64,000 nt of DNA from Vicinamibacteria bacterium (GCA_035570235.1 DATMML010000030.1:1-64000), one strand, 5' to 3'; counted from the stretch's first letter, positions 34,071 to 37,381 are shown. The notes: a model not told the origin generated them from the letters alone. Numbers and translations: made by a program.

Positions 34071-34493
34071 ATGCGCTATCTCGGCCTGAGGGGTGCGGAT
34101 GTCCGCCGGACCCTCGGGTTGGTATGTTTGATTTGCGCTCCCCTCTTGGCCGCCTGCGTGAACGGGCGGCCCGGAACCGACACCTCCAACCCCGGGGTGC
34201 CGGGAGGGCCTACCGCCCCCACGGGCCGGACGGTCGCCTACACCGACCTCCAAACCGCTTTTGCGAATGACTGCCTCTCCTGTCACAACGACTCTCGTGC
34301 GGCCGGCAACTATTCGATGGGCACCTACCAAGAGGTCCTCAAGGACGTGAAGCCCTATGATGCGGCGAGCGCCTTGGTCGTGGACACCCAGCCCGGGGGG
34401 TCGATGTACCGGTACTGGACCGGGGATCCGCAAACGAAGGCGGCGCTCGTCTTCAACTGGGTGGTTGTCTATGGGGCCCCGGGCAGCCGGTAG
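34071..34493 (+). CDS. Mono-heme c-type cytochrome lipoprotein
   Basis: A 140-residue protein. The signal (TLGLVCLICAPLLAAC) ends in lipobox LLAAC, followed by a Gly/Pro/Thr tether. One heme c motif CLSCH at residues 68-72 (34272-34286), with Met candidates for the distal ligand in YSMGTY or GSMYRYW. The overall pattern (DLQTAFANDCLSCHNDSRAAGNYSMGTYQEVL in two parts) resembles small planctomycete-type cytochromes. It leads a tightly packed operon with a TlpA-like protein, DUF4266, DUF3570 and ApbE. The next gene starts 1 nt after its stop. Confidence 0.85.
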   Translation: MRYLGLRGADVRRTLGLVCLICAPLLAACVNGRPGTDTSNPGVPGGPTAPTGRTVAYTDLQTAFANDCLSCHNDSRAAGNYSMGTYQEVLKDVKPYDAASALVVDTQPGGSMYRYWTGDPQTKAALVFNWVVVYGAPGSR

Positions 34494-34494
34494 G

Positions 34495-35025
34495 ATGCGC
34501 CCTTCCTTCTGGGTCGCGGCTCTTGTAACGGTGCTCCTTTCCGGAACGGCCGGGGCCCGCCCGACGCCAACGACAGCACCGACCCTCGAGCTCACCACCC
34601 TCGAGGGCAAGACGGTGAGGCTCGCCGATTTCAAGGGTCGCGTCCTTCTCGTGGACATCTGGGCGAGCTGGTGCGGGCCCTGCAAGAGCTCCTTCCCCTC
34701 CCTGGATGCGCTGTACCTGGAGCTCCACCCCCTCGGCCTCGACCTGTTGGCCGTGAACGTCGACGAGCGGCGTCGCGACGCCGACGAGTTCCTCTCGCAC
34801 CATCCCCATCAGATGCCGGTCGTTCTCGACCCCCAGGGCCGCGTGCCCGAGGCCTTCGGCGCCGAGGCCATGCCCAGCTCCTTCCTGATCGATCGGAGCG
34901 GCAACATCCGCTTCCGCCACGCGGGGTATTCACCCGCCAGCCTTCCGGTCTACCGTCAGGAGATCGCGAGGCTCCTCGAGGAAGCGGGAGCGGAGAGCGA
35001 CGGAGTGGTCGTCATCGGTCCATGA
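34495..35025 (+). CDS. TlpA/ResA-like thioredoxin-fold protein
   Basis: A 176-residue exported thioredoxin. Signal peptide to about residue 21 (VTVLLSGTAGA), then LRLADFKGR-type AhpC/TlpA start, active site WCGPC (Cys60, Cys63) and cis-Pro loop EAMPSSFLID. Such proteins reduce disulfides outside the cytoplasm, often in apocytochrome c or in metal-site Cys pairs. Here the likely clients are neighbours: two CXXCH proteins and a tiny lipoprotein ending in Gly/Cys. It starts 1 nt after the cytochrome stop. Confidence 0.92.
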   Translation: MRPSFWVAALVTVLLSGTAGARPTPTTAPTLELTTLEGKTVRLADFKGRVLLVDIWASWCGPCKSSFPSLDALYLELHPLGLDLLAVNVDERRRDADEFLSHHPHQMPVVLDPQGRVPEAFGAEAMPSSFLIDRSGNIRFRHAGYSPASLPVYRQEIARLLEEAGAESDGVVVIGP

Positions 35026-35035
35026 GGAGGTCTTG

Positions 35036-35257
35036 ATGTCCCTGCTCTGCCGCACGGTGGTCCTCGCGGGCGTGATGGGACTCTCCGCTCAAGGGTGCGC
35101 GACCGTCCAGCCGTGGCAGCGGGGCCGTCTCGCCGATCCCTGCATGACCTTCGATTCCGACGCGGGACGCGTCGCGTACCAGACGCACTGGCAGGAGGCT
35201 CGAGAGGGCGCAGCGGGAGGCTTTGGAGTCCAGTCGGGCGGCTGTGGCTGCAAGTAA
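35036..35257 (+). CDS. DUF4266 small lipoprotein
   Basis: A 73-residue exported protein. Hydrophobic signal (TVVLAGVMGLSAQGC) with a rough lipobox AQGC, then VQPWQRGRLADPCM, QEAREGAAGGFG and a C-terminal tail GGCGCK, all DUF4266 hallmarks. The mature part has four further-conserved-looking Cys/Gly positions and a His. DUF4266 genes are typically next to DUF3570, as here; the function is unknown. A strong GAGGAGG sits 5 nt before ATG 35036 (TTG 35033 is in frame). Confidence 0.88.
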   Translation: MSLLCRTVVLAGVMGLSAQGCATVQPWQRGRLADPCMTFDSDAGRVAYQTHWQEAREGAAGGFGVQSGGCGCK

Positions 35258-36338
35258 GCCTCGCTACCGCTCACGCCTGCGGGCGCTCTTAGTCGTGGGC
35301 ATCGGCGTCTCCGCCCTCGAAGGGGCAGGGTATGTGGACTGGGCGGAAGACGAGCTGAACGTCCAGTTCCACGCCTTCCAGGACACGCGGGACGCCACCA
35401 TCCTGAGCCCAACGATCGAGCTCACCAAAGACTTCACCGACCGAACGACCCTCCGAGCAAAGTTCGGCCTGGACGCCATCTCCGCGGCCTCGGACTCGTG
35501 CGTGCGCTGTCACCGACCGGGCGCCAGGGACACCCGCCTGCTGGCGGGCGCCTCCGTGATCCATAAGCTGAGCGATGACACGAAGCTCACCGTTGGTGCG
35601 GAGGTGGGGCACGAGAACTTCTACCAGGCGACCACCGTCATCGCGCAGATCTCCAAGCGCCTGAACAAAGGAAATACGACCGTGGCGGGCGGCTACTCGT
35701 TCTCCCTCAACCGACCGCAGCTCCACCCCGCCCAGCGGACGGAGAACCAGTTTGCGAGCGACGCCTTCGCCTCCCTCACTCACACCCTCACGAAAACTAC
35801 GGTCGCGCAATTCGGCTACGAGATCGCGCAGATCGACGGGTACCAATCGAGTCCGTTCCTTCGCGCGCTCATCAACGGCGAGCGAGCGGTTGGAGTCTCC
35901 CCGGACAGCCGAACCCGCCAGACGCTAAGCGCGAGGCTTCGGCAAGCCCTACCTCTCGATAGCTATCTCGAGACCGACTACCGACACTACCTGGATACTT
36001 GGTCGATCCACTCCAACAGCCTTCAGGTGGGTCTGTCCCACTATCTGACCCGACAACTCCTGGTAAATGTGTCGTATCGGTGGTACCAGCAGACGGGGGC
36101 ATTCTTCTTTGCTCCGGAATACTTCGGCAACCCCCACTACTTCACGGGGGACTTTCGGCTCCAGCCATTTGACTCCAGCCTCTACGGTGGACGAGTGGTC
36201 TACACGTCCCGGGGCCGTCTCCTTTGGCTCCCGGAAGGCGCCGGCCTGACCGCCGAGTACGAGTTCTACCGGAGCACGACCGGGTTTCAGGCCGCAATCT
36301 TCACGGGAGGCGTCCGCATTCCCCTAGGCAACAAGTGA
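35244..36338 (+). CDS. DUF3570 outer-membrane beta-barrel with an internal CXXCH heme motif
   Basis: About 364 residues. Signal-like start (LRALLVVGIGVSALEGAG) then repeated amphipathic strands (ATILSPTIELTKDFTDRTTL, FGYEIAQIDGYQ, LLVNVSYRWYQQTGAFFF) ending in IFTGGVRIPLGNK, as in outer-membrane barrels. Residues 86-90 are CVRCH (35499-35513), a canonical c-heme attachment site, in a loop after FGLDAISAASDS. A barrel carrying its own heme is unusual. GTG 35244 overlaps the DUF4266 stop; TTG 35223 is also in frame. Its stop overlaps the apbE start (GTGA). Confidence 0.87.
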   Translation: MAASKPRYRSRLRALLVVGIGVSALEGAGYVDWAEDELNVQFHAFQDTRDATILSPTIELTKDFTDRTTLRAKFGLDAISAASDSCVRCHRPGARDTRLLAGASVIHKLSDDTKLTVGAEVGHENFYQATTVIAQISKRLNKGNTTVAGGYSFSLNRPQLHPAQRTENQFASDAFASLTHTLTKTTVAQFGYEIAQIDGYQSSPFLRALINGERAVGVSPDSRTRQTLSARLRQALPLDSYLETDYRHYLDTWSIHSNSLQVGLSHYLTRQLLVNVSYRWYQQTGAFFFAPEYFGNPHYFTGDFRLQPFDSSLYGGRVVYTSRGRLLWLPEGAGLTAEYEFYRSTTGFQAAIFTGGVRIPLGNK

Positions 36339-37381
36339 GACCGCTCCCCGGGAAGGGCGTCGCCTGGGTCGCCTTCGTGTTGGTCGGGCAGGCCTCCGCG
36401 GGCGGGGAGCCGCCGGCGGCCGATCCGGACGTGACGACCAGGGAATACCGATACCTCATGGGGACGTCGGTGGAGATCATGGCCAATGGAGGCTCGGCCA
36501 GCGAGCGCCGGGCCGCCGTCGACGAGGCCTTCGCGGCCGTCGCGGAAGTCGACCGGCTCATGAGCAACTACCGGGACGACAGCGAGCTCGCAGAACTCAA
36601 CCGCAACGCGGATCGCGTCCCGGTGAAGGTCAGCGCTCCCCTGCTCTCGGTCTTGGAGGCGGCACAGCGCGTCAGCGCCTTGAGCGACGGTGCCTTCGAC
36701 ATCACCGTGGGTCCCTTGGTGCGTCTCTGGGGATTTCACGACAAGAAGGCCCACGTCCCCGCCCCGGAGGAGCTGGCCCGGGTGCGTCCCCTAGTTGGGT
36801 ACAAGAACCTACTCATCGATGAGAGCCTGCACACGGCGCGCTTCGCCCGCCCCGGCGTCGAACTCGACTTGGGTGGTATCGCCAAAGGCTTCGCAGTAGA
36901 GCTCGCCGCCAACGTGCTCCGCAAACACGGCCTCACGGGGTTGATCGACGCCGGGGGCAACCAGTACCTCCTCGGCCACCCGCCGGGCAAAGACTCATGG
37001 CGGGTCGGGATCAAGAATCCAGACGCCCCCAACAGGTTGCTCGGCATGCTGGAGGTCGGGGAATGCTCGGTCTCGACTTCCGCCCAGAATGCCAACTACC
37101 TCACCGCAGGCAACCGCACATACGGCCACATCCTCGATCCCCGGACCCTCCAACCCTCCGATGGGGCATTGAGCGCCACCATCATCTCCCCCGATGGGAC
37201 CTTCGCCGATGCTTTGTCCAAAGTAGGCTTCATCCTCGGACCGGGACGGGGCCTGGACATCATCGAGTCCTTCCCCCAGACCGCTGGTCTCATCGCCTAC
37301 CGGCAGCCCGACGGCCGCATCGGTATTGCAACCTCGCCGCGCCTCCGGGGAAAGTTTCATCCAACCTCCGCGCCTCCTTAA
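36335..37381 (+). CDS. apbE: FAD:protein FMN transferase
   Basis: About 348 residues, exported (GVAWVAFVLVGQASAGG). ApbE attaches FMN covalently to Thr/Ser of periplasmic target proteins using FAD. Motifs: MGTSVEIMANG, SALSDGAFDITVGPLVRLWGF, ELDLGGIAKGFAVELAA, GLIDAGGNQYLLG, HILDPRT and FADALSK. GTG start inside the DUF3570 stop (GTGA). I found no canonical target motif (DGxTGAT-like) in the four upstream proteins, so either the target lies elsewhere or the site is non-canonical. Confidence 0.93.
   Translation: MRPLPGKGVAWVAFVLVGQASAGGEPPAADPDVTTREYRYLMGTSVEIMANGGSASERRAAVDEAFAAVAEVDRLMSNYRDDSELAELNRNADRVPVKVSAPLLSVLEAAQRVSALSDGAFDITVGPLVRLWGFHDKKAHVPAPEELARVRPLVGYKNLLIDESLHTARFARPGVELDLGGIAKGFAVELAANVLRKHGLTGLIDAGGNQYLLGHPPGKDSWRVGIKNPDAPNRLLGMLEVGECSVSTSAQNANYLTAGNRTYGHILDPRTLQPSDGALSATIISPDGTFADALSKVGFILGPGRGLDIIESFPQTAGLIAYRQPDGRIGIATSPRLRGKFHPTSAPP

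Follow-up and report, generated by a model that had tools for sequence, protein, structure and literature searches.

Gene content of the cluster

The window is the whole stretch of DNA that was analysed, 64,000 nucleotides from a Vicinamibacteria bacterium. Table 1 presents an overview of a cluster of five genes on one of its strands at 34071-37381, together with the features of the DUF3570 protein that bear on the argument below. The cluster had been pointed out in an earlier reading of the sequence alone (the sequence-only reading), and the positions given there were all reproduced, as were the gaps of 1 nt and 10 nt and the overlaps that follow them, which measure 14 nt and 4 nt. The same reading's assignments to the Redoxin, DUF4266, DUF3570 and ApbE families are borne out by Pfam. 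The DUF3570 gene most likely begins at GTG 35244, inside the last 14 nt of the DUF4266 gene, and a V-A-A-S start is common to several relatives. ApbE also starts with GTG, within its 4 nt overlap with DUF3570. A consensus scan found no promoter. Residue numbers of DUF3570 (A1 numbering) are counted from codon 35250.

Table 1. Coordinates of the five genes and of selected DUF3570 features in the window
Feature	Coordinates	Strand	Remarks
Monoheme c-type cytochrome lipoprotein	34071..34493	+	Lipobox LLAAC, one CXXCH
TlpA/ResA-like exported thioredoxin	34495..35025	+	Redoxin, E 6.9e-26; WCGPC at about 34669-34683
DUF4266 small lipoprotein	35036..35257	+	PF14086, E 1.3e-17; C-terminal CGCK
DUF3570 beta-barrel, heme-type	35244..36338	+	PF12094, E 3.6e-32
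First flavinylation-like motif D-A-I-S-A-A-S	35472..35492	+	Candidate FMN acceptor Ser at 35490-35492
CVRCH heme c attachment motif	35499-35513	+	Lies in the loop where canonical DUF3570 has its flavin sites
Heme-type-specific invariant His, H41	35370..35372	+	Candidate distal heme ligand
Heme-type-specific invariant His, H159	35724..35726	+	Candidate distal heme ligand, on the barrel side of the CXXCH
ApbE FAD:protein FMN transferase	36335..37381	+	PF02424, E 2.9e-77

A TlpA-like thioredoxin, DUF4266, DUF3570 and ApbE are together known from the literature as a flavinylation module (Meheust 2021, PMC8238504), and the window cluster has the same four core families. In Chlorobium luteolum, DUF3570 has been shown experimentally to be flavinylated by its own ApbE at two [S/T]GA[S/T] motifs (PMC8238504), so that the description of DUF3570 in the sequence-only reading as a family of no assigned function is outdated. 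Among the published clusters of ApbE, DUF3570, thioredoxin-like protein and DUF4266, a DsbD gene is present in some and missing in 316, and for a few DUF3570/DUF4266 clusters a role in iron assimilation has been proposed (PMC8238504). The window cluster has no DsbD-family gene, and two DsbD_TM proteins are encoded elsewhere in the same genome. The DsbD family is found in 13 of the 14 genomes with clusters of the kind described here. Unlike the DsbD-type system, the window cluster has an added gene for a monoheme lipoprotein, and its DUF3570 carries one weakened flavinylation motif, a CXXCH and two new invariant histidines instead of two motifs. A literature search found DUF3570 and DUF4266 named in nothing beyond PMC8238504, and nothing linking Vicinamibacteria with flavinylation. 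The authors of PMC8238504 may have had CXXCH-type DUF3570 sequences without commenting on them.

Heme-type DUF3570 and its lipoprotein neighbor

In canonical DUF3570 proteins of the same phylum, the flavin-bearing loop has sequences such as DQITSASTDNIDDDVSSAS or DSLTGASPNGA...; the loop of the window protein is DAISAASDSCVRCH. Here the Asp and the acceptor Ser of the first motif are retained while its Gly has become Ala, leaving the single variant DAISAAS where the published system has two [S/T]GA[S/T] motifs. The second motif is absent and a CXXCH occupies its place, three residues past the acceptor Ser. DUF3570 sequences were collected across the class (193 genomes) and the phylum (396 genomes), mostly MAGs, and 14 of them, that of the window and 13 relatives of the same class, proved to be of this heme type. 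By alignment, all 14 heme-type sequences have CXRCH, and 0/23 canonical ones do. D75 and S81 never vary among the 14, the same Asp and final Ser being present in 23/23 canonical sequences, and the Gly of the first motif is lost from 13 of the 14. Exactly two cysteines, those of the CXXCH, are found in 13/14 heme-type proteins; canonical proteins have none or one. H41 and H159 are each present in all 14, with Leu, Asn, Gly or Gln at the former position in canonical proteins and Tyr, a gap or another residue at the latter. In a group of soil Acidobacteriota, judging from these sequences, one flavin-attachment site of DUF3570 appears to have been exchanged for a heme-attachment site. This heme motif inside DUF3570, which replaces a flavin site and goes together with the lipoprotein, is the main novelty of the cluster and was overlooked in the sequence-only reading.

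The heme-type proteins form one clade with support of 100/100 in a tree built without the loop columns; they share 48-81% identity with one another and 16-29% with canonical DUF3570. The ApbEs of the heme-type clusters likewise form one clade, which matches that of DUF3570. DUF4266, whose CXC cysteines lie at 35243 and 35249 in the window, has Lys after its CGC in the heme type and Asn, Ser or Thr in canonical types. Since this gene set is also found clustered in another 13 genomes, at the DUF3570 identities given above, a chance arrangement is excluded. Free variation of the neighbors, which the sequence-only reading had named as an argument against a joint role, was not seen, the gene set being conserved in 14/14 clusters.

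A scan of public genome contigs with heme-type-derived patterns lying outside the CXXCH returned 12 loci only, all of them in Acidobacteria-type MAGs. One of these, a public record titled Bifidobacterium breve (L069, CALQBJ020000185.1), carries the same acidobacterial cluster, and its title is very likely wrong. None of the 25 genomes with DUF3570 from other parts of the phylum sample has the heme type, and no heme-type DUF3570 was found in the viral contigs searched. The DUF3570 of a Hymenobacter plasmid, the one plasmid sequence read, is canonical and has no CXXCH. The 13 other genomes of the window genome's family hold no DUF3570. Heme-type members are scattered without regard to family boundaries, which suggests transfer or frequent loss.

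Turning to the lipoprotein, its gene belongs to every heme-type cluster (14/14) and to no canonical one (0/23). Even where the gene order is altered (G066 and G044), it directly adjoins DUF3570; G066 has two copies, and the copy in G044 is split by an in-frame stop. Since the heme type is one clade, this coupling represents one event that was widely retained and not 14 independent ones. In the window the CXXCH of the lipoprotein lies at 34272-34286 and an invariant Met at 34404-34406; across the 14 aligned sequences C68, C71, H72 and M112 are invariant, and the Met is likely the distal heme ligand. A CXXCH, a conserved Met and a signal for export and lipidation are the sequence marks of a c-type cytochrome, and the protein has all of them. 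No Pfam family matched it above cut-off, and its best NCBIfam match, to the LIC11213-family lipoprotein (E 1.7e-7), is weak and under the family cut-off. In a sequence search of solved structures its heme site weakly matched a cytochrome (4rlr, E 3e-4), and a fold search against solved cytochromes gave no significant match. The notion that the family is exclusive to heme-type clusters was rejected, as relatives occur in about ten genomes of the class that have no such cluster. Some of these relatives (L113 5325-6998, L114 5078-7767, L116 6193-7483, L121 5799-7127) adjoin a gene for a small membrane protein (L113, L114, L116) or a Rieske-domain protein (L113, L114, L121), apparently as another redox module.

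A sequence search of solved structures with DUF3570 gave no match. The AlphaFold2 model of the protein is a barrel of 16 main strands with a mean pLDDT of 76, and by Foldseek it is porin-like in fold. Modelled strands 66-75 and 96-106 flank the CXXCH, whose loop (76-95) is modelled with low confidence, the pLDDT being below 50 at residues 78-87. H159 is placed in a long inter-strand loop (158-166). By strand counting, the two loops share the long-loop side of the barrel, which is usually extracellular and would be so in this model.

Possible retention of flavin and alternative readings

Whether flavin persists beside the putative heme turns largely on ApbE. In the window protein the motifs DLGGIAKG, DAGG, GHILDPRT and ADALS are intact by alignment, and the FAD-binding and catalytic motifs are intact in most heme-type relatives. 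Three near-complete genomes (G071, G075, G091) encode a single ApbE each and no FMN_bind or DUF2271 protein, so that among known kinds of substrate DUF3570 is the only candidate in them. Two ApbEs are encoded in the window genome, where neither an FMN_bind nor a DUF2271 protein was found; the second ApbE is at L101 7152-8246 (G000:C1:24726-25550). No ApbE was found in G016 and G044, where the contig stops within or just past the cluster. In the cluster ApbEs of one canonical DUF3570 type (L080-L092, L099), the ADALATA motif has AG instead of AD; in other ApbEs this conserved motif contains an active-site Asp. As for the acceptor motif, a Gly-to-Ala change reportedly retains about 50% of flavinylation (PMC12052999), which makes modification of DAISAAS plausible, and FMN on S81 of the heme-type protein is plausible from its sequence.

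The sister pair G049/G050 points the other way. Key motifs, among them the catalytic-His region, are missing from their cluster ApbE, and the CXXCH of DUF3570 is kept, so FMN may be dispensable there; on sequence grounds the pair is a possible natural case of flavin loss. In the two copies (L033, L039; G049:C7, G050:C185) DLGGIAKG has become TLDGLAKG or SVDGLAKG and the GH-ILDP histidine region is lost. Both genomes hold other ApbEs besides the degenerate cluster copy. Extended to the whole clade, such loss would amount to a full swap, in which heme c replaced FMN in DUF3570 and the cluster ApbE either survives as a relic or has some other, unrecognised protein as its substrate. This reading would also account for the missing second motif and for a first motif that lacks its Gly in all but one sequence, and yet it is considered unlikely: most members retain ApbE in its operon place with active-site motifs unchanged, Asp and acceptor Ser are invariant throughout, and several genomes lack any further substrate family known for ApbE. 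Weighing the retained and mostly intact ApbE, the lone candidate substrate and the tolerance of Gly-to-Ala against the G049/G050 pair, a barrel bearing both cofactors is ranked above the full swap with modest confidence.

The remaining alternatives concern the heme itself and the purpose of the operon. The CXXCH of DUF3570 might be heme-free: a thiol/disulfide or metal site, with TlpA and the DUF4266 CXC as its exchange partners. The cluster is rich in thiol proteins, and a lone CXXCH within the loop of a barrel is uncommon as a place for heme. CXXCH motifs of exported proteins are normally acted on by the cytochrome c assembly (Ccm) system, and Ccm proteins are encoded in 14/14 genomes with heme-type clusters; with the motif His also invariant in 14/14 beside two further clade-specific histidines, and the monoheme lipoprotein always in the cluster, a heme-free site seems distinctly improbable. 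Less probable still is that the operon is mainly a maturation unit, with TlpA as a ResA/CcmG-like reductant for CXXCH and ApbE loading FMN. The thioredoxin does resemble ResA and DsbE, and the operon does encode two CXXCH proteins. However, a TlpA-like gene is present in every DUF3570 cluster examined (14 heme-type, 23 canonical), and the canonical clusters without CXXCH have TlpA in 23/23 cases and DUF4266 in 22/23. Since these proteins accompany a DUF3570 that is free of CXXCH, their basic role cannot be heme loading. The sequence-only reading had offered an envelope electron-transfer path or a cofactor-loading system; its joint envelope redox role is well supported, by the gene set common to the 14 clusters and by the published core, and its loading variant has become less likely.

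Proposed electron path and related systems

An envelope electron-transfer module, consisting of a barrel with FMN and heme c, or with heme replacing FMN, and a dedicated cytochrome lipoprotein, is on balance the probable function of the cluster. Within it, a flavocytochrome barrel is proposed more tentatively: FMN and heme c would sit on neighboring residues of one outer-membrane DUF3570 loop and would pair two-electron thiol chemistry, from TlpA and DUF4266, with one-electron transfer. The TlpA-like thioredoxin would probably receive electrons from a DsbD/CcdA-type membrane protein whose gene lies elsewhere and could exchange them with the CXC lipoprotein DUF4266, which in turn would exchange them with the DUF3570 barrel in the outer membrane. 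The barrel of the heme clade would carry one covalent heme c at the flavin loop of its relatives and would most likely have kept one FMN as well, attached by ApbE to the Ser that precedes the first heme Cys by three residues. In this arrangement the flavin may bridge the two-electron thiol and one-electron heme chemistries. From the FMN and heme, electrons could leave to the monoheme lipoprotein, as a dedicated one-electron partner of DUF3570, or to an acceptor outside the cell, and the reverse direction is possible.

Several known systems offer partial likenesses. The Cyc2/Cyc572 cytochrome-porin fusions, which act in Fe(II) oxidation (PMC10654088), likewise have one CXXCH and a porin-type barrel within the same polypeptide, predicted to lie in the outer membrane, and by analogy heme-type DUF3570 may work as they do. 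In Cyc2, however, the CXXCH is N-terminal, ahead of the barrel (PMC10654088), and that of DUF3570 is in an inter-strand loop beside the flavin site; heme-type DUF3570 is therefore not classed as Cyc2. An operon with ApbE, TlpA and DUF4266, such as the window DUF3570 has, is also not described for Cyc2. MtrAB and PioAB join a barrel and c-type heme to move electrons across the outer membrane (PMC7198977, PMC10654088). They use a separate ten-heme cytochrome with the barrel, whereas the window cluster has one heme motif within the barrel protein and one in a small lipoprotein. In fumarate reductases, heme and flavin modules substitute for each other in related electron-transfer proteins, but there whole domains are swapped (PMC8238504), and the exchange in DUF3570 is at one loop of one domain.

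DUF3570/DUF4266 clusters are widespread, and the DUF3570 variant points to a one-electron partner, which opens their function to spectroscopic tests and to mutation of the CXXCH and the acceptor Ser. Together, the flavin-to-heme variant and the monoheme cytochrome in the operon suggest that the loop is a site of electron transfer and not a structural or binding feature. The heme-type protein would be a case in nature where one redox cofactor takes the place of another within the same protein, and a very local one, as flavin-for-heme exchange has so far been described for whole domains.
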